Source: a virus. Taken from it: a stretch of 21,465 nucleotides of DNA. Positions 1,058-20,078 of this stretch are shown one piece after another. The notes beneath the pieces are model-generated. The model had not been told where the DNA came from, made no database searches, and worked only from the letters and a program-made list of their open reading frames with translations. The DNA lies in the IMG/VR virus record IMGVR_UViG_3300044617_000409, positions 1 to 21,465 of that record. One strand, 5' to 3'. Both the position numbers and the translations under genes were made by a program. The first letter of the stretch is position 1, and each line of letters opens with the position of its first letter.

Positions 1058-1915
1058 TCAAGTTCCCCATTCGTTCTTGAACAATGGTACTTGCAATCTG
1101 TCGCTATAACGCCAACCGCGCTTCATAGCAGCCAGTGCTACATTCTTTGCGTTTAGATTATAAACACTATCAACACCGCCGACAGGCATGATGTAAGTGT
1201 TACCAGTGAAACCAGCATCTCTGAATTCTTTATCTGCCCTCTCAGCATCTTTGATATCTTCTTCAGTCGCAACTACGAACTTTAGATAGACATGTCCTAC
1301 TTCTTGATATTGCACGATGTTCTCAGGTATGATAGCATTTTCCCATTTCTCACCACTAGCGGGTAGTTTTGCACTTACGCTGAATGTGACGCTATCATAA
1401 CTGCGTGTGCTGAACGGGTCACCTTCAGCCCATTCATATAGATAATCTACAAATTCTTGCTTGAGTTTTTGCGTACCGTTAGTCTCAAATGTGATCTCTT
1501 TGAGATTCTTCATTAATGGATGACTTAACAATAAGGGAAATTGTTTCTGCCACCCTAGCAATGGTTCACCACCTGTGATGACTAGATGTTCATCTCGCCA
1601 TTCTTTGTGTGGCAATAACTCTACAATCGATTGAGCCAACCCGTCGATTGATATGCGAGGGCTAAGATGCTTAAATCTAGTATCCCAACTAGCATAACTA
1701 TCGCAACCTGTAGTGACCAGGGGTAGTGCGTTATAGTGTGTATATTTTGAAGCATCCACGGCGTGGCGTTCATTAGTCTTTTCTCCTCTAGGCATACCGA
1801 AACCATCACAAGTGAAGTTGCAACCAAATGTGCGTAAGAACACACTTGGGACGCCCATATAGCGTCCTTCGCCTTGAATGCTGTAAAACAGTTCACTTAC
1901 TTTTATTGAGTTCAT
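1058..1915 (-). CDS. queE: QueE-like 7-carboxy-7-deazaguanine synthase (radical SAM)
   Basis: QueE converts 6-carboxy-tetrahydropterin to 7-carboxy-7-deazaguanine (CDG) with S-adenosylmethionine and a 4Fe-4S cluster. The N-terminal ELFYSIQGEG block (residues 8-17) is the QueE signature. The cluster cysteines are spaced unusually: C32-x3-C36-x34-C71, the last followed by DSYASWDTRF. TGGEP (114-118) is the SAM-binding GGEP motif, and FETNGT follows near 143-148. At 285 residues it is longer than the usual 210-250, mainly because of the insert between the second and third cysteines. The ATG at 1915 has AAGG upstream and overlaps the 3' end of the DNA glycosylase gene by 23 bases. With FolE and QueD in the same window it completes the GTP-to-CDG route. 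Family call secure; the phage-type cysteine spacing is what I see, not a measured activity. Confidence 0.9.
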   Translation of the reverse strand: MNSIKVSELFYSIQGEGRYMGVPSVFLRTFGCNFTCDGFGMPRGEKTNERHAVDASKYTHYNALPLVTTGCDSYASWDTRFKHLSPRISIDGLAQSIVELLPHKEWRDEHLVITGGEPLLGWQKQFPLLLSHPLMKNLKEITFETNGTQKLKQEFVDYLYEWAEGDPFSTRSYDSVTFSVSAKLPASGEKWENAIIPENIVQYQEVGHVYLKFVVATEEDIKDAERADKEFRDAGFTGNTYIMPVGGVDSVYNLNAKNVALAAMKRGWRYSDRLQVPLFKNEWGT

Positions 1916-3265: not shown

Positions 3266-3787
3266 TTACCACCAACGCTCCCAGGGGAATACGCACCATT
3301 CAGGTTGCTCTATCTTGTTGATAGAATGTCCTACATAATCAACGAAAAAGTCGCTGGCTTCATTTTCGATCAATGACGCAAATTTAACATTGTTATGCCA
3401 TACACTATTCCATGCAGATTCTTTTGGAAGACAAGTACCTTGCCAATCTTCAATAACATTTTGAAATGTCTTACCGCTATCGTTGATATCATCGATGATC
3501 AAGATTTTCTTTCTGAAACTCACATCCCATCTAGATTTATAAACTTCTTGATCTTCTCGGGGAACATAACCAAATGCATCTTCTGACATCCAGCAGTTGC
3601 TTTCATCAGGATCTAATGAATGAAATGGGATGTGTAGATAGTGACTGAGCATGACCCCGGGGATAAGCCCGCCCCTCTTGAGTCCTACGATATAGTCAGG
3701 TTTGTAATCTGTGTTATACATCTGACGCACGATTTCAAGTAACGCGGTCTTTACAAACTTATCGTCATACAATTTTTCGTTTTTCAT
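3266..3787 (-). CDS. Type I phosphoribosyltransferase, purine (xanthine/hypoxanthine) type
   Basis: Type I phosphoribosyltransferases join a base to ribose 5-phosphate from PRPP. The PRPP-binding loop is clear: ILIIDDINDSGKT (residues 95-107), with the two acidic residues and the turn expected of the family. VGLKRGG (34-40) forms the PPi-loop region, and WCVFPWE (164-170) resembles the C-terminal FPWE segment of xanthine or hypoxanthine enzymes, so a 6-oxopurine substrate is likely. I choose ATG 3787 because it overlaps the upstream TAA as TAATG; a 13-residue longer form is open but would lie within the upstream gene. With GMP reductase in the same window it points to control of purine pools. 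The exact base is not established. Confidence 0.8.
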   Translation of the reverse strand: MKNEKLYDDKFVKTALLEIVRQMYNTDYKPDYIVGLKRGGLIPGVMLSHYLHIPFHSLDPDESNCWMSEDAFGYVPREDQEVYKSRWDVSFRKKILIIDDINDSGKTFQNVIEDWQGTCLPKESAWNSVWHNNVKFASLIENEASDFFVDYVGHSINKIEQPEWCVFPWERWW

Positions 3788-3978
3788 TACCAGTGCCTTA
3801 TAACATTTGCTATGATGAATAAACATGTTATCACATGTAGTGCTACCCAGAAAGTTTTTAGGAACAATGCGATACGGGCTTCTCGCAAAGTTAATACAGG
3901 AACCCTAGGGCGGTCCTCGTCGGTCTCTCCCATTAGATGCCCTGTTGCCCTAGCCCAAATTTTTACTAGACTGTTCAT
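3787..3978 (-). CDS. Small membrane protein (63 aa)
   Basis: This short gene lies between queD and the phosphoribosyltransferase gene with an ATGA overlap at its start (3978) and a TAATG overlap at its end, which is the main reason to accept it. The N-terminal two thirds are hydrophilic and charged (GETDEDRPRVPVL), and the last 20 or so residues (FWVALHVITCLFIIANVI) form one predicted membrane span, so the protein would be tail-anchored. A 20-residue longer form starting at 4038 would overlap queD and is less likely. Function unknown. Confidence 0.65.
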   Translation of the reverse strand: MNSLVKIWARATGHLMGETDEDRPRVPVLTLREARIALFLKTFWVALHVITCLFIIANVIRHW

Positions 3979-4424
3979 GCTTCGTAAATTGCGCTGTTTG
4001 CACCATGTTCGGCACATTCTACACGCACACAATAACAACGATTATTAGACTTCTCACGAATTAAATTATCAGCATAATTAAAAGCATGTTCAGCAAATTT
4101 TTCTGCTCCCACACCATCAAAATATGCAAGTTTTGCCAACCCCAATGTTTCTAAATGTTGGAAATCTGCAACGTGAGGGTCTGCTGTATCTAAACAAACC
4201 TTATGATCAAAACTGTCTTCTAACCATTTCTTTAAATCTTTAAGACCCCCGAAATCTACAGCCCAGTTTTTATCATCTAATGTCTCACATCCAAAAGTAA
4301 ACTTGAATGATAAACTATAGCCATGCAATAAATGACAATGGCTATGTAATGCATTGGGCTGTCTAAAGACTGCCGATAAACCTATGTTGTGTCCGTATGT
4401 TTTTGTTGAATAATATTTTGCCAT
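3975..4424 (-). CDS. queD: QueD-like 6-carboxy-tetrahydropterin synthase (degenerate zinc site)
   Basis: QueD makes 6-carboxy-tetrahydropterin from dihydroneopterin triphosphate, the second step towards 7-deazaguanines. This is a 149-residue tunnelling-fold protein. HSHCHLLHGYS (27-37) corresponds to the catalytic Cys and LHGHS region, with C30 in place; AVDFGGLK (about 55-62) matches the conserved strand-helix turn; FDHK follows; EHGANSAIY near the end matches the Glu-containing terminal strand. The zinc triad is not canonical: F20 and Y36 replace two of the three His ligands, leaving H34, though H27, H29 and H31 lie close by. I know a related clade with the FRQ...HC..LHGY pattern from marine bacteria and phages. 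It has an AAGGAG site before ATG 4424. Activity is plausible but depends on the altered metal site. Confidence 0.82.
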   Translation of the reverse strand: MAKYYSTKTYGHNIGLSAVFRQPNALHSHCHLLHGYSLSFKFTFGCETLDDKNWAVDFGGLKDLKKWLEDSFDHKVCLDTADPHVADFQHLETLGLAKLAYFDGVGAEKFAEHAFNYADNLIREKSNNRCYCVRVECAEHGANSAIYEA

Positions 4425-4502: not shown

Positions 4503-4670
4503 TTATACGCTTTTTCGTTCGTATTCTTCAACAATTTTAGTAGTTAGTGTTTCCCATAATGGTTCTAACGCAGTTCTAGGATCCAATTCTACTTCTTTGT
4601 CTGTGATGCAAGTTGCATCGTATTTAACGATAACCTTATCACCTTTGTTATTCTCAAATGTTAATTTCAT
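4503..4670 (-). CDS. Hypothetical small protein (55 aa)
   Basis: A 55-residue gene from ATG 4670 to TAA 4503 with a strong GAGGTGG ribosome site 4-5 bases upstream and an 8-base gap from the sufE stop. The sequence begins as a beta hairpin (MKLTFENNKGDKVIVKYD), followed by a proline turn and an amphipathic helix ending EEYERKSV. No known motif. It fills what would otherwise be a gap in a tightly packed array. Confidence 0.6.
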   Translation of the reverse strand: MKLTFENNKGDKVIVKYDATCITDKEVELDPRTALEPLWETLTTKIVEEYERKSV

Positions 4671-4678
4671 AAACCACC

Positions 4679-5086
4679 TCATACAAAAATTGCGGCTTGT
4701 TGTTTTACCATCGATAACATGTTGTAGGCGCCGTTTCTACGATTCATGCTTAGTATATTACCTAGATCAAGTTCTTCCATAAGATTACGGTCATTCTTGA
4801 CTATCTCTTCTGGAGTGCTATTTGAATAGATATCGCTGATAAGTGTGACTGTACCCTTAACGATCTGTGCATCACTATCACATAGATAGTTGATCTTGCC
4901 ATTATCATATTTAGGCACTAACCACACTTGACTTAAACAACCTTGTACCTTGAAGTTTTCTAATCTGAACTCTTCAGGAAAAGGTCCCGCTTTTCTAGCC
5001 ATGTCGATAAGAAATTTATATCGTTCCGTATTATCCATGAACATACTTAGGATATTACGATAATGATCTATCTTTTCATCAATCAT
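4679..5086 (-). CDS. sufE: SufE-like cysteine-desulfurase sulfur acceptor
   Basis: SufE takes persulfide sulfur from SufS and passes it to the SufBCD scaffold for iron-sulfur cluster assembly. The key block is KVQGCLSQVWL, matching the SufE loop V-x-G-C-x-S-x-VW with its acceptor cysteine. The following SDAQIVKGTVTLISDIYSNS and the TPEEI turn are also typical of the family. At 135 residues it is about the usual length. I choose ATG 5086: AAGGAG lies 6 bases upstream and the codon overlaps the Smr gene's TGA as ATGA; ATG 5092 is the alternative. Partners SufS and SufBCD are not in the window, so it would plug into the host pathway. It could support the radical SAM enzyme QueE, which needs a cluster; that link is inference. 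Confidence 0.85.
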   Translation of the reverse strand: MIDEKIDHYRNILSMFMDNTERYKFLIDMARKAGPFPEEFRLENFKVQGCLSQVWLVPKYDNGKINYLCDSDAQIVKGTVTLISDIYSNSTPEEIVKNDRNLMEELDLGNILSMNRRNGAYNMLSMVKQQAAIFV

Positions 5087-5295
5087 AGCCATCTCCTTAC
5101 GACTACCACACCATATCTGTACATATGTGTGTCTAGCCCTAATTTTTTAGTAACACTATACACTAATTGTATCATCCTCGCGCTATTTCCGCAAATGATT
5201 TCTAATGGGAATTCGCCCTGATTCATTAGTATGAAGTCTTCAACTAAGTTATTAACTTCACTATGGCGAATACCATGTAAATCAAGTTTGGTCAT
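5083..5295 (-). CDS. Stand-alone Smr domain protein
   Basis: This 70-residue protein is a minimal Smr (small MutS-related) domain. LDLHGIRHSEV near the N-terminus carries the LDLHG motif, and the later segment IICGNS replaces the usual TGxG-type loop, followed by a helix and a terminal strand (HMYRYGVVVVRRW). Smr domains bind or nick nucleic acid; some act on RNA in ribosome quality control, others with MutS2. The gene is joined by ATGA overlaps to the cytidylyltransferase-like gene upstream and to sufE downstream. Which substrate it acts on, and whether it is active with the altered GNS loop, cannot be told. Confidence 0.75.
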   Translation of the reverse strand: MTKLDLHGIRHSEVNNLVEDFILMNQGEFPLEIICGNSARMIQLVYSVTKKLGLDTHMYRYGVVVVRRWL

Positions 5296-5998: not shown

Positions 5999-6161
5999 TT
6001 GCCACCTTGTTTGTATCGATGATAACATCTAATGCTTGGCGCAATAGTTGCTCAATGGTCACTAACTTTTGCTCAGTCTCGTACAGTTTCTTATGCTGTA
6101 GTTCTAACCTGCCCTCTAGTTCACATACTTTTGTGAAAAGGTGTTCGTTAAAATCACTCAC
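5967..6161 (-). CDS. Small coiled-coil protein (64 aa)
   Basis: A short protein dominated by one long amphipathic helix with heptad-like spacing (KVCELEGRLELQHKKLYETEQKL), so it probably forms a coiled coil. I choose GTG 6161, which overlaps the folE stop as GTGA; a TTG two codons earlier is the alternative. It overlaps the next gene by 32 bases. Function unknown; could be an adaptor or a structural accessory protein. Confidence 0.55.
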   Translation of the reverse strand: MSDFNEHLFTKVCELEGRLELQHKKLYETEQKLVTIEQLLRQALDVIIDTNKVANGIQETTRSK

Positions 6162-6838
6162 TTGCAACCCTGCCTTGCAAGTTGATAGAACTCATTACGA
6201 ACAGCAGGCTCAGTCTTGAACCCACCGCCTAGACGGCTAGTGACTGTGCTTGATCCAGTATCTTCGACGCCGCGGCTCTTGACGCAATAGTGTTGCGCAT
6301 CGATCATGACGGCAACATCTTCTGTCTCAAGGATAAAACAAAGTGTGTGGAAAATCTGCTCAGTCAATCGTTCTTGAATTTGCGGACGCTTGCTGAAGTA
6401 TTCAACGATACGATTGATCTTTGATAATCCAAGCACCTTCTTCTTGGGAACATACGCTACAGTAGCGACACCGTCGATGACAACAAAGTGATGTTCGCAA
6501 TTGCTTTGTACATTGACATTGCGCTCTACGACCATCTCGTTATAGTGCATCTTGTTTTCGACTGTAGTGCATTTGGGAAATGCTTCATAGTCTAAGCCCC
6601 AGAAAATCTCGTTGACATACATCTTGGCAACACGCTTGGGTGTTTCGATGAGGCTGTCATCAGTCAAGTCTAGACCTAGCGCCCTCATGATCTCAGCAAA
6701 GTTACCTTCGATGATATCAATCTTGTCTTTACGGTCTAGATTGCGTTCTTTGATTGGGGTTTCTACACCGACACTTACTAGATATTCATGGACTCGTTTG
6801 CCCAACTCTGGATCGGTTTTTGTCTTGTTATAACTCAT
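6158..6838 (-). CDS. folE: GTP cyclohydrolase I
   Basis: FolE converts GTP to dihydroneopterin triphosphate and formate, the entry step to folate and 7-deazaguanine synthesis. The 226-residue protein has the zinc ligands in the expected order: C114 and H117 in NCEHHF, and C185 in HYCVKSRG. The helix ETPKRVAKMYVNEIF (about 65-79) and the segment GLSKINRIVEYFSKRPQIQERLT (about 137-159) are family signatures. A GAGAAAC-preceded ATG at 6838 lies close to the AAGGAAGGAG site. QueD and QueE lie further along the same strand, so it most likely feeds the 7-deazaguanine pathway. A hairpin and an ATAAATA element lie just upstream. Length and residues look intact. Confidence 0.95.
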   Translation of the reverse strand: MSYNKTKTDPELGKRVHEYLVSVGVETPIKERNLDRKDKIDIIEGNFAEIMRALGLDLTDDSLIETPKRVAKMYVNEIFWGLDYEAFPKCTTVENKMHYNEMVVERNVNVQSNCEHHFVVIDGVATVAYVPKKKVLGLSKINRIVEYFSKRPQIQERLTEQIFHTLCFILETEDVAVMIDAQHYCVKSRGVEDTGSSTVTSRLGGGFKTEPAVRNEFYQLARQGCK

Positions 6839-6911: not shown

Positions 6912-7646
6912 CTACTCAATATAGCCCTTATTTTTTAGATAGGGCATGATCACTTGCTCAGTATATAACTTACTTTGCTCGGTACTAGGGTGTTGATCGT
7001 TAGGCAACACATTTGGTAATCCAGACTCTTTACAAAAACTCATCATATCGGATCCGGGCAACCATTCACTAAAATCAATCATATCATATAGATATTTCAA
7101 ATCAGGATGTTCTGCTTGTATAGCATTTGGTATAACATATCCTGAAAACTTAGTCATGAAATATCTGATGTTATATTGTTTTAGATACCATTGCAATGTT
7201 AAAATATTTTGCATAGTTTCTATCAAACTACCTATCTCATCATAGAATGTATTATAGTATATTTTGCTATAAATGTAATCTGAATTCGGGTTAATGAAAT
7301 AGAATGCATCCTCACCGGAGATTTTTACAGGCATGGGCATATGATTTTTATAAATGCCTTTCATCTCGCTCGGCAATAATACTCTTCCTGTATTGTAGAA
7401 CATATGTCTATCAGCACCGCTCCACATTACTCCAACCAACAAATCGGATTTGTTCTCTATTTGGGACAACTGGTATAATACTGATTTCAATATAAAACTG
7501 TTTCCGGCTGCGGCTAATCCTGTATGAATGCTAGGAACTTGCAAATAGTTCTCTACATGCACAGGCCAGTTTTCTATGGAGATACCTTTGAACATCACCG
7601 GTACCATACTAAAACTACAGCCGCCGCTCAGAAACCTTTTAATCAT
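6912..7646 (-). CDS. SGNH/GDSL hydrolase-like protein
   Basis: The 244-residue protein shows a faint SGNH-hydrolase layout. LSGGCSFSM near the N-terminus resembles block I with S11 as possible nucleophile; AAAGNSF near residue 47 resembles the GxN block; and [13 protein letters not shown] near the C-terminus resembles the D-x-HPS catalytic dyad region. Such proteins remove acyl or acetyl groups from sugars or lipids, but many phage relatives have no known substrate. ATG 7646 overlaps the guaC stop as ATGA. No signal peptide is visible, so a cytoplasmic or virion location is likely. Moderate confidence in the fold, low in activity. Confidence 0.5.
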
Positions 7647-8749
7647 TTAGTGAATATATTATTATATTGTTGAGTTACCCTTATAAATGTAGTGCATTTG
7701 CTTAGGTTCTTCAATGTATTAGCACCTACATATGTACAAGTGCTACGCAAACCGCCCAATAAATCAAGAACGGTATTATTGACAGGACCTCGATATGGAA
7801 CTTCTACTGTCCTGCCTTCACTACTACGATAGTTAGCCACGCCACCATGATGTTTATTCATAGCAGTTTCACTACTCATACCATAGAACTTCACGAACTC
7901 TTTGGATTCGATAAATGGCTGATAATCTGGAATTCCTGATTTATCCATTCCGGCGATAAACTGCTGACCTGTCAAATAGTATTTTTTGACTATCTCGCCA
8001 CCGCCTTCATCATGTCCGGCTAACATGCCACCAAGCATAACGAAATCTGCGCCTGCGCCAAATGCTTTAGCCACATCGCCTGGGCAAGTACACCCGCCGT
8101 CAGCAATAATATGTCCACCAAGCCCATGCGCCGCATCAGCGCACTCAATGATCGCAGAAAGTTGCGGGTAGCCAACCCCAGTCTGTATCCTAGTTGTGCA
8201 TACCGATCCTGGCCCGATTCCAACTTTGACAATATCTGCTCCTCGTAAAATAAGTTCCTGTGTCATATCTGCGGTAACAACATTACCTGCAATGATTGTT
8301 TTTGAAGGATATGTGTTACGGACCTTTTCTACGAAATCACCGAACTTGTCACTATACCCATTAGCAACATCGATACAAATAAATTTTAGTTCAGGATAAA
8401 CATTTAGTATTTGCTGTAACCTAGACCAATCTGAATCTGAAGTTCCTGTGCTAACGGCAAAACTACTTGCACGATTTGTATCTTCGATTAAAGTTTGGAA
8501 ATTTTCGATGCTGATATTTTTTGTCAGACAAGTAAACATTCCATGCGTATGAAGAGATACTGCCATTTCGATAGTGCCTACACCATCCATGTTAGCAGCC
8601 ATGATGGGAACGCCTGTCCATTCCCATCCTGAATGCTTGAACTTAAAAGTACGATTCAAATCGACTTCTTTGCGACTGGATAATGTGCTACGCTTGGGGC
8701 GTATCAACACATCCTTGAAGTCTAATTTGACATCTTGTTCGATGCGCAT
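7643..8749 (-). CDS. guaC: GMP reductase
   Basis: GMP reductase converts GMP to IMP and ammonia with NADPH, moving guanine nucleotides back towards the adenine branch. The 368-residue protein is a TIM barrel of the IMPDH/GMPR family. [16 protein letters not shown] (8-23) and the loop [11 protein letters not shown] with C184 as catalytic cysteine are clear, followed by [22 protein letters not shown]. The late block [14 protein letters not shown] with the [10 protein letters not shown] stretch separates GuaC from IMP dehydrogenase, and no CBS domains are inserted. The last 20 residues extend slightly beyond the E. coli enzyme. An AAGG site and a 3-base gap from the histone-like gene suggest one transcript. 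Phage-encoded GuaC is uncommon; its role may be nucleotide pool control. Confidence 0.93.
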
Positions 8750-11963: not shown

Positions 11964-13493
11964 TCAATTCTCCAGATTCTGTGACATGAGATCGTCAGTA
12001 TCATCCTCTTGCTCATCGTCAACAGTATTATTTTCTTCTACTGTAAACAATTGATCGAACATTGTCAAGGCATTAACTGTCCGTTTTCCGCTAAAGCCCT
12101 GGCTACCTGACTTCATTTGCATCCAGAACTTATCATACTTATCGATGAGGTCTAAACTTTTCTGTCTGTCTTTTAAAGAAAAAATCTCATCGACCAAAGT
12201 ACCGAAATGAATCTTCTCAAATGTCTCATTCATGACCATGCTAGGTACTACGCCATTATCATACTGACGATTACCTTCTTGCACGGCTGTGATATGTTGA
12301 TATACATTATGTGCTTGCAACAATGTATAACTCAATGTATCCCAACTCGTCTTTGTCTCTTTACCATGCGCACCCAAGAATCCATGACCGCGATAACAAA
12401 GGTCCCTGATCATCATCCGATCAGTGATCGGACTATCTTGGAAGGTCTTGTGTATACCATCAGCCAATACAGCGTCACTGAATTTCCGATTATCTGTTGC
12501 ATAATCTTTGTTTTCAGCCGTCTTTTCCATGCTGTATGACCATTTGGTATCGTGTTCGATATTATTTTGAAAGTACGCTAGACCTTTAGCCGCGCTAAAG
12601 AATGGGCTTGCGCAGTCAAAAGTAATCTGCAAGTTTGGATTGTGATGCTTACGAATCGCTCGTTGAATATCGCTGAACAATACTGCATACTCTAAGATAC
12701 TAGTACCAAGACAGTGAATCAAGTCGTGCTTACCTGGCTCAAGCAATCCGTCATGGATTATATTGACAAGACGCTTTAACATCAAGTGAATATCGATCTT
12801 ATTCTGACCACCAAATGCCCAACCATTGAAATGATTCTTTGGATAGACTTTTGGATCGCAGTATTTCTTCATCTCATCATACCACTGATCGCTCTGTGTA
12901 TGAGTCAAGCCCTGCAATACATTCAAGAACTTACATTCACCATTTCGATTATTGATGAAATATTCATTATTAATATGTGTGGCTTTGACAGCATCATCGA
13001 TAGTGCGAATACCATGCTTATCAAATAGATGTTGATTACGGATAGTCTGCGAGGGCACATCAAGACACATACCATAATCCATGTATGTATCCATCCACTT
13101 GAGTACAAGTTGTCGTTGCTTCATGGCTTTAGGACAGTTAGGATCTTTCCAGTCAGCGGGCCATTGACCCTTCATGATCTGGAAACCACCTGAGTCACCT
13201 AGCATGAAAGTACCTTTCTCACGCTTGCGAATGATGCTCTCAGCAGGGTCATCGACAGTAGTATCTAAGTTAGCATGACCTGCACTATACAAACCCCATT
13301 TGTAAGTATACAAGCCTTTCTTGCTATTCAACAAGTTCAAGCATTCAACATCACCGTTGAAGCCTACTGGAATACGCTCAGGCGGAAAGTAATTCTGGCC
13401 CTCTCGTTGCTTGCCTAGTCCCGTGATAAAGAAACTAGACATCGCAGGCAAGAACAATGCCCATTCACTGTTATGTTGTTTTGATAGATTCAT
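11964..13493 (-). CDS. dpdA: DpdA-like DNA/tRNA-guanine transglycosylase (TGT superfamily)
   Basis: This 509-residue protein belongs to the TGT superfamily, which swaps guanine for a 7-deazaguanine. GDSGGFQI (99-106) carries the first catalytic Asp (D100); LDVPSQ (144-149) matches the base-recognition loop; NVLQGL (191-196) and AFGGQ (226-230) fit the substrate pocket; and TFDCASP (291-297) supplies D293 at the nucleophile position. The CxCxxC...H zinc site of bacterial TGT is not visible. It is longer than bacterial TGT (about 375), with an acidic C-terminus. In phages with FolE, QueD and QueE, such proteins (DpdA) modify DNA and protect it from restriction enzymes, so DNA is the likely target here. 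It overlaps the upstream 115-residue gene by 23 bases. The substrate base and target sequence are unknown. Confidence 0.85.
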   Translation of the reverse strand: MNLSKQHNSEWALFLPAMSSFFITGLGKQREGQNYFPPERIPVGFNGDVECLNLLNSKKGLYTYKWGLYSAGHANLDTTVDDPAESIIRKREKGTFMLGDSGGFQIMKGQWPADWKDPNCPKAMKQRQLVLKWMDTYMDYGMCLDVPSQTIRNQHLFDKHGIRTIDDAVKATHINNEYFINNRNGECKFLNVLQGLTHTQSDQWYDEMKKYCDPKVYPKNHFNGWAFGGQNKIDIHLMLKRLVNIIHDGLLEPGKHDLIHCLGTSILEYAVLFSDIQRAIRKHHNPNLQITFDCASPFFSAAKGLAYFQNNIEHDTKWSYSMEKTAENKDYATDNRKFSDAVLADGIHKTFQDSPITDRMMIRDLCYRGHGFLGAHGKETKTSWDTLSYTLLQAHNVYQHITAVQEGNRQYDNGVVPSMVMNETFEKIHFGTLVDEIFSLKDRQKSLDLIDKYDKFWMQMKSGSQGFSGKRTVNALTMFDQLFTVEENNTVDDEQEDDTDDLMSQNLEN

Positions 13494-19258: not shown

Positions 19259-19498
19259 TCAGCAATACTTAAGTTTCAAAAAGACAAATTCTTCTTCGGT
19301 CATTACTATGATCACATCATTATTTTTAGTGACCTTAGTCTTATAACCATTTTTTATTAATAGATTAGAAAATTCTCTTGCTATATTTGGTCTACTAGAG
19401 AAAGAATCAACTAGCGTGAATATGTTCAATGTTTCCTCCCGCCAGTTATCTTTCATCCATTCTAACAACCATTTATTTTTATTCAGGCTGACAAGCAT
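19259..19498 (-). CDS. Hypothetical small protein, possible fourth member of the ELMxWM/LRW family
   Basis: A 79-residue protein whose start ATG 19498 overlaps the tilS 3' end by 20 bases. WLLEWMKDNW (about residues 10-19) and the terminal EEEFVFLKLKYC resemble the ELMxWMxxN and EWFxLRW blocks of the three tandem paralogs at 2469-3265, but the middle differs. The relation is suggestive only. No known motif or membrane segment; function unknown. Confidence 0.55.
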   Translation of the reverse strand: MLVSLNKNKWLLEWMKDNWREETLNIFTLVDSFSSRPNIAREFSNLLIKNGYKTKVTKNNDVIIVMTEEEFVFLKLKYC

Positions 19499-20078
19499 CT
19501 AAGATCATTCTCTTCACTACTTTTTCGATGCCCGGATTCACATGATATGTATGAGGCACTAAGTGCTTGCGGATATAATTACGCATGTACTTGTCATCTT
19601 GGTTGCTAGTGTCTTCACACCATTCAAGACCTTTGCGCTCACACCAACTTACCAGTTCAGTCTTGGCTGTCAGTAAGAAAGGTCTGATTACATTGTTGCG
19701 TGTGTCGGGAATCACTTTAGGATCGCCGTGCATCGCAGACCAGATGTATGTTTCTACACAATCATTAAGATGATGTGCTGTCACCACAGTCTCAAACTTG
19801 CGCAAGAACTTATAACGCTCATCACGCCAATGTTCTTCCATGCTTTTATTAGCAGGCTTTTGTTTGTGAATGAACCCTAGATATAATGGGAGATTTCTAT
19901 CTGCGCAGAATCTTTCAACGAACTTCAATGCTTTCTCGCTATTGTCAGTACCATGATGAAAGAATGCACAGGATACTTCATGGTTGCGATTTAGAAAGTC
20001 TACAGCGGCGACGCTATCAACGCCACCGCTGAATGCAACTGTTAGATTTCTGGGTAATTTTTTGAGCAACCTTATCAT
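19479..20078 (-). CDS. tilS: Short TilS-like tRNA(Ile)-lysidine synthase (PP-loop ATPase)
   Basis: TilS uses ATP to attach lysine to C34 of the CAU-anticodon isoleucine tRNA so that it reads AUA. SGGVDS (17-22) is the PP-loop; AHHLNDCVET (101-110) and the block EDTSNQDDKYMRNYIR (155-170) are TilS signatures. At 199 residues only the N-terminal catalytic domain is present; E. coli TilS has about 430 and an extra C-terminal tRNA-binding part. QueC was considered because the pathway needs it, but its terminal zinc cysteines are absent. The start ATG is forced: no other Met precedes the PP-loop, and it falls at the predicted transcription start of a strong promoter, so the mRNA may be leaderless. 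AUA codons are common in the window, which fits the role, but activity on tRNA is not shown. Confidence 0.78.
   Translation of the reverse strand: MIRLLKKLPRNLTVAFSGGVDSVAAVDFLNRNHEVSCAFFHHGTDNSEKALKFVERFCADRNLPLYLGFIHKQKPANKSMEEHWRDERYKFLRKFETVVTAHHLNDCVETYIWSAMHGDPKVIPDTRNNVIRPFLLTAKTELVSWCERKGLEWCEDTSNQDDKYMRNYIRKHLVPHTYHVNPGIEKVVKRMILDACQPE

Follow-up and report, generated by a model that had tools for sequence, protein, structure and literature searches.

The window, by which we mean the whole stretch of DNA that was analyzed, has 21,465 bases and is the entire IMG/VR record. Among phage records, its PolB was nearest to that of Agrobacterium phage Atu_ph07 (490 kb, 47%), followed by Sinorhizobium phage Phosso (469 kb) and others, and 17 of the best 20 PolB matches fell in phage records of 345–490 kb, the other three being shorter. 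Judged from these comparisons of sequence, the window is probably a fragment of a jumbo phage and represents a small part of its genome. A preliminary description had remarked that SufS and SufBCD are lacking. This is correct for the window itself, but because the record as a whole is a fragment of 21 kb, their absence says little and is uninformative for the phage. The genes and ORFs considered below are:

4679..5086, minus strand: gene for a sulfur acceptor of the SufE family (135 aa when started at the ATG at 5086), with the acceptor cysteine in GCLSQVW
5083..5295, minus strand: Smr-like ORF, 70 aa, forming the upstream edge of the slot that holds SufE; its stop and the start of SufE overlap within ATGA
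4503..4670, minus strand: small ORF forming the downstream slot edge, likely start ATG at 4670; it directly follows Smr in the relatives L119, L120 and L121
5292..5783, minus strand: cytidylyltransferase-like (NTase) gene, first in the coupled NTase-Smr-SufE run
1058..1915, minus strand: QueE-like radical SAM gene, the proposed SufE client
3975..4424, minus strand: QueD-like gene
6158..6838, minus strand: GTP cyclohydrolase I (FolE)

The SufE gene and its predicted product

Overlaps of 4 nt were found at both the NTase/Smr and the Smr/SufE junctions. The coupling of SufE to an Smr gene and a nucleotidyltransferase gene, as previously described, is thus borne out at both junctions, but the Smr label itself is weak (16.8 bits versus a cut-off of 25.7). 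The SufE reading frame can be opened further, to 4679–5092 on the minus strand (137 aa), and residue numbers given here follow this longer frame. The ATG at 5086 was preferred as the start due to the AAGGAG located 6 nt upstream and the overlap of this ATG with the Smr stop as ATGA. This is the start used in the preliminary description, and it is also the likely one because in L119, L120 and L121, which lack SufE, the next small gene starts at the same ATGA.

The product matched Pfam SufE (PF02657) with 117.8 bits against a cut-off of 27 (E = 3.2e-34, profile positions 4–121 of 121), and no other Pfam family was matched. Using phmmer, residues 1–135 of 137 were aligned with E. coli SufE (E = 1e-14). 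The acceptor loop reads GCLSQVW without disruption, and its cysteine, Cys52, pairs with Cys51 of the E. coli protein and was present in all 23 sequences that were aligned. Also invariant in the 23 sequences are Asp74 and Arg118, whose counterparts in the phmmer alignment are Asp74 and Arg119 of the E. coli protein. We take Cys51, Asp74 and Arg119 to be residues important for E. coli SufE. An AlphaFold model (pLDDT 95.7) had E. coli SufE (1mzg) as its best PDB match, with a TM score of 0.88 and an rmsd of 1.4, and was also close to the SufE of the SufS–SufE complex 8vbs. The two proteins therefore share their modelled fold, the GC.SQVW loop with the acceptor cysteine, the DSDA motif and the later arginine, whereas the window protein differs in being carried by a phage, in its identity of about 30%, and in falling under the cut-off for the E. 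coli-type equivalog (NCBIfam PRK09296; 79.9 bits versus 160). Because this cut-off is not reached, partner specificity may differ from that of E. coli SufE. Note that Actinomarina SufE likewise falls below it (82.7 bits).

Other family assignments were also considered. CsdE chains (5eep, 5nq6, 4lw4, 5ft8) share the superfamily fold, with TM scores of 0.66–0.84 for these chains, but the window protein scored lower on the CsdE model (60.7 bits, under the TIGR03391 cut-off of 136.4) than on the SufE model (79.9 bits). SufU was rejected, given that 6jzv gave only E = 0.039 and TM 0.49, far behind SufE, and that PF02657 was the sole Pfam match. A search of PHROGs returned no family. Values of dN/dS were calculated among ten phage copies by the method of Nei and Gojobori and ranged from 0.02 to 0.11 for 15 pairs out of the 17 listed, with saturation in the remaining two; by this measure, the gene is evolving under purifying selection. 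The earlier identification of a phage-encoded SufE with its active-site cysteine loop preserved is confirmed, in that family, acceptor cysteine and modelled fold are all conserved in what looks like an intact gene.

Some other genes of the window are recorded here for reference. Only three cysteines (32, 36 and 71) occur in the QueE-like protein; each of them is conserved in all 43 distinct rows, and the third sits 34 residues past the second. This is an unusual spacing for a cluster motif; in the usual radical-SAM motif, the third cysteine is found 2 residues past the second. Positions 19479–20078 encode a TilS-like PP-loop domain of 199 aa that scored 122.1 on the NCBIfam N-domain model (cut-off 93.6), with the rest of TilS absent. 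A gene of the IMP dehydrogenase/GMP reductase family (7643–8749) is present in some relatives and absent from others. Positions 11964–13493 encode a 509-aa protein that accompanies queuosine-type genes in relatives and matched nothing in Pfam, PHROG, NCBIfam or PDB; that it might be DpdA-like is a guess.

Presence and absence of SufE in an operon slot

Loci spanning FolE, NTase, the slot and QueE were collected, and the 56 obtained were reduced to 40 by collapsing those with identical FolE and NTase proteins. SufE was present in nine of the 40 and absent from 31, where nine of 40 overstates the frequency of SufE due to the inclusion of loci that had been found by the SufE search. In L119, L120 and L121, whose PolB is 89–91% identical to that of the window, NTase, Smr and the small ORF follow in order with SufE missing, and the Smr stop overlaps the start of the small ORF as ATGA, at the exact site of the SufE start in the window (L120 and L121 have identical FolE and NTase). 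Presence of SufE varies among near relatives to the extent that the tree needs four changes, at least two of which are forced by well-supported branches. As read from these alignments and trees, SufE is an optional accessory cassette placed between Smr and the small ORF. The edges of the cassette are marked by an imperfect short direct repeat:

5083..5095, minus strand: upstream copy, containing the start codon as well as a portion of the ribosome-binding site
4667..4680, minus strand: downstream copy

The likeness of the two copies may be functional, as translation signals lie inside them, and for this reason recombination at the flanking repeats is only a guess.

SufE in Actinomarinales

Cellular relatives were sought in a scan of bacterial genomes. 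Among the best 80 of 588 stretches, two contigs of Ca. Actinomarina came first (53% and 49%), followed by other bacteria at 44% or less; the scan was not exhaustive, and closer cellular relatives are possible. Both contigs (L219, 4047–6886; L220, 3972–6885) carry a sufC-sufS-sufE run, in which SufS and SufE were assigned by family and SufC by homology. That these contigs might be hidden phage was rejected, based on the ordinary chromosome genes around the run (read by eye). SufE was found in 34 of 42 Actinomarinales genomes, and each of the 30 loci that were read has SufS as its immediate upstream neighbor on the same strand. NifU_N/SufU was found in neither of two Actinomarinales genomes checked, which may be incomplete. 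Across the class as a whole, SufE was seen in 69 genomes out of 296, and Actinomarinales account for 34 of these. A further observation concerns the gene that follows: in L219 and L220 it is a convergent phosphoribosyltransferase gene, distantly like window positions 3266–3826 (about 33–34%), and a phosphoribosyltransferase gene follows SufE in 29 of 30 Actinomarinales loci.

Trees were made with 22 of the 29 viral SufE loci found besides the window, plus the window itself. Phage and Actinomarinales SufE formed one clade with support of 100/99 in a tree that left out L037 and L038 and included 14 of 78 other bacterial rows. The same clade was recovered at 100/97, apart from the SufE of 10 other members of the class, in a tree that left out L038 and held 12 other bacterial and 10 Actinomarinales rows; for this tree, 20 other class members were fetched and the 10 giving no tblastn match were dropped. 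The single clade (100/99) implies that the SufE gene crossed between phages and Actinomarinales. In the best tree of each of these two sets the Actinomarinales sequences are nested among those of phages, and in the best tree of a third set, which also gave the joint clade at 100/99, they are placed beside them; for the first of these sets, a single phage clade was not rejected (p-AU 0.508). The SufE of Ca. Actinomarina is thus closest to the phage proteins among the best 80 cellular stretches and falls in their clade, but differs in belonging to a chromosomal run beside its own SufS.

Sulfur supply and possible partners

The explanation we prefer, with a probability of roughly 0.6, is that the window encodes a true SufE-type acceptor for a SufS-type desulfurase, carried as an optional cassette that serves Fe-S or sulfur supply in general and not QueE in particular. 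During infection, SufE would dock on a SufS-type cysteine desulfurase, and its loop cysteine would take the persulfide sulfur and pass it to the SufB scaffold, such that Fe-S assembly might become faster or better protected. For the window phage and its close relatives, desulfurase and scaffold would most likely be those of the host, and in at least one relative they are phage-encoded; we assume that SufS is present in the host of the window phage. The adjacency of sufS and sufE in 30 of 30 Actinomarinales loci gives indirect support for a SufS-type partner. The earlier suggestion that SufE draws on a SufS-type desulfurase of the host is probably correct, because the close SufE-positive relative G007 (150,743 bp, PolB 91%) gave no PF00266 match. 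An effect other than boosting supply is possible.

Alternatively, the phage could encode its own SufS, and perhaps SufBCD, elsewhere in its genome, with SufE operating within a phage-borne SUF system. Such a set is found in phage G026 (328 kb), which has homologues of the window PolB (53%), QueD (79.5%), NTase (60%) and IMPDH (50%) as well as QueE and FolE, and in which the terminase large subunit, portal, tail sheath and DNA polymerase were identified when 36 of its 60 ORFs of at least 400 aa were scanned. Scores exceeded the respective cut-offs for SufS (491.9 bits, cut-off 475.1), SufB (645.1, cut-off 346.4), SufC (240.9, cut-off 212.8) and an A-type carrier (104.8, cut-off 58.8). The SufD-like protein is a core of 192 aa that remained under its cut-off (131.7 bits versus 222) and passed that of PF01458 (120.5 versus 27). 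The G026 SufE adjoins one radical-SAM gene and is one gene away from a second, out of 22 radical-SAM matches in this phage. The SUF genes, with those for SufE and the A-type carrier, are located as follows:

L330:5019-6485, L330:10847-12095, L329:125-1333, L329:8363-8686 and L135:10228-10629: stretches of G026 with these genes

Counting G026 itself, SufS of this type was found on seven viral contigs (six others) and SufB at 65 viral loci (64 others), although many of these contigs may be bacterial, and phage hallmarks were sparse in the few neighborhoods checked. On the other side, the search applied to G026 gave no SufS or SufC match in the large SufE records G007, G016 and G029 or in four SufE-less records; G007 is the nearest large SufE-positive relative of the window and, as stated, also has no PF00266 match. 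PF00266 was matched in only two of the 29 other SufE records, and one of the two, G028/L037, resembles a SUF operon of enterobacteria and was treated as bacterial. We therefore regard a SUF system borne by the window phage as unlikely. Note that the same absence of SufS and SufC from G007, G016 and G029 and the same rarity of PF00266 also weigh against the preferred explanation.

Other arrangements of SUF genes were observed on viral contigs. SufB, SufC, SufD-like, SufE or SufS occur in varied combinations at L440:10001-13539, L511:56-13172 and L494:9977-14883, possibly not all of them phage; in L440, a SufE-like gene (57.7 bits) directly precedes SufC and a SufD-like core. In G029 (250 kb), L038:4890-8401 holds a divergent SufE followed by a 689-aa radical-SAM gene, a ClpP-like gene (identified by eye) and an A-type carrier. 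Among isolated phages, SufE homologues were matched in five of 50,697 records at 27–38% identity. Of the three that were inspected (H1, H2 and H3), H2 (MW462191.1, L002, labelled “Bacteriophage sp.”) is probably not a phage, as the genes around its SufE-like “sulfur acceptor protein” look bacterial. The record of H5 is titled as a Salmonella contig.

The preliminary description had proposed that SufE may serve to supply QueE with Fe-S clusters (4Fe-4S) while a modified base is being produced in bulk. SufE, QueE, QueD and FolE do lie together within 6 kb of the window, QueE was found in all five SufE records of the first scan, and the QueE cysteines are conserved in every distinct row, as noted above. 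This proposal is nevertheless improbable. Of the 40 distinct QueE-slot loci, the 31 that lack SufE include some with 89–91% PolB identity and a precisely empty slot, and QueE-type matches above 120 bits were obtained in only 12 of the 29 other SufE records (one of the 12 being cut by the contig end). One more SufE record has a QueE match of 54.5 bits at its contig end, and seven others gave 20–33 bits, mostly to radical-SAM frames some 400 aa long. SufE records G012, G014 and G016 (51–108 kb) gave no QueE-type match exceeding 50 bits.

Relatives were also collected by PolB and by NTase, with SufE present in only nine of 92 records (nine distinct SufE records and 83 tested, some of the 92 being near-copies), many of the rest having QueE or numerous radical-SAM genes. 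The 80 loci of the PolB set comprised 37 that were newly tested, six in SufE records already known and 37 on contigs shorter than 10 kb, giving SufE in six of 43 records of at least 10 kb. None of the 37 newly tested records had SufE, and eight of them matched the QueE family. For NTase, the 80 loci comprised 46 that were newly tested, none with SufE, four that were SufE-positive and 30 that had already been tested, were short or were near a contig end, giving SufE in four of 50 records. Most of these relatives are fragments, making absence soft for each, which does not affect the empty-slot loci. The refuting condition named in the preliminary description, co-occurrence that is independent of an Fe-S enzyme, thus goes against the proposed dedication of SufE to QueE in this survey.

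Three other partners were tried and rejected. Dependence on the number of radical-SAM genes was not retained, as matches were found in 21 of 30 SufE records (the window included) but also in 33 of 46 SufE-less records. Nine of the 30 SufE records have none, and five SufE-less records of 231–364 kb have 9–20 each (two of these, G085 and G086, look like near-copies). An A-type carrier is not an obligate partner: it occurs in SufE-positive G026, G029 and G007 and in SufE-less G085, G067 and G094, and it was not found in G016 and G101. A TilS-like gene is likewise present in SufE-less loci L124 and L125.

A phage SufE might instead act as a decoy that takes sulfur from SufS and starves host Fe-S assembly or another sulfur path, given that a lone acceptor without a scaffold of its own could compete with host SufE. 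This is improbable, considering that none of the mapped positions for catalysis and for the interface has been lost and that the same lineage adjoins sufS in Actinomarinales. A CsdE-like relay of sulfur to RNA or nucleotide modification, rather than to Fe-S assembly, has even less in its favor. CsdE is the second closest solved family and the window does encode a TilS-like PP-loop protein, but the SufE model outscores that of CsdE, and the TilS-like gene, at a distance of 14 kb, is shared with the SufE-less L124 and L125. To our knowledge, lysidine synthesis uses no sulfur. Finally, sporadic occurrence among close relatives could suggest a neutral passenger, which is hardly credible for a gene with these dN/dS values and with open frames in diverse phages.

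The preferred explanation, a general sulfur acceptor carried as an optional cassette, can be set beside earlier reports. In its accessible text, PMC8940887 describes sufE without sufS in viromes of the eastern tropical North Pacific OMZ and proposes a boost to Fe-S formation; genome context, cassette behavior, a link to Actinomarinales and a phage SUF set do not appear in that text. The accessible text of PMC5332604 describes genes for an A-type carrier and IscU in marine phages related to T4, among them a phage with 12 radical-SAM genes; the carrier and IscU are likewise helpers of Fe-S assembly, but SufE and SufB are absent from the main text of that paper. Suf and Fe-S terms are absent from the main text of PMC11360552. 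Among the papers listed, none dealt with a SUF set in a phage, nor with Actinomarinales having a phage-like SufE, in a search with preprints and most subscription journals outside its scope. Virome SufE has thus already been published, and a near-complete phage SUF set is apparently unreported within the literature searched.

Tentatively, and at somewhat less than even odds for both parts together, the window SufE could be the minimal form of a phage toolkit that in some jumbo relatives becomes nearly a whole SUF factory (SufB, SufC, SufD-like, SufS, SufE and A-type carrier) equipping dozens of radical-SAM enzymes, and a SufE of the phage lineage could have entered the suf operon of Actinomarinales. 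If this is right, some large phages go beyond borrowing the Fe-S supply of the host and contribute some, or almost all, components of a pathway for making the cofactor, which would be in keeping with the large number of radical-SAM genes observed in jumbo phages. Genomes that match except for cleanly having or lacking sufE constitute a natural experiment on what limits the supply of Fe-S clusters during infection. As for Actinomarinales, the link would exemplify the exchange of a core housekeeping component between viruses and an order of marine bacteria and, if true, ocean bacteria rely on a component of viral type for core Fe-S assembly.
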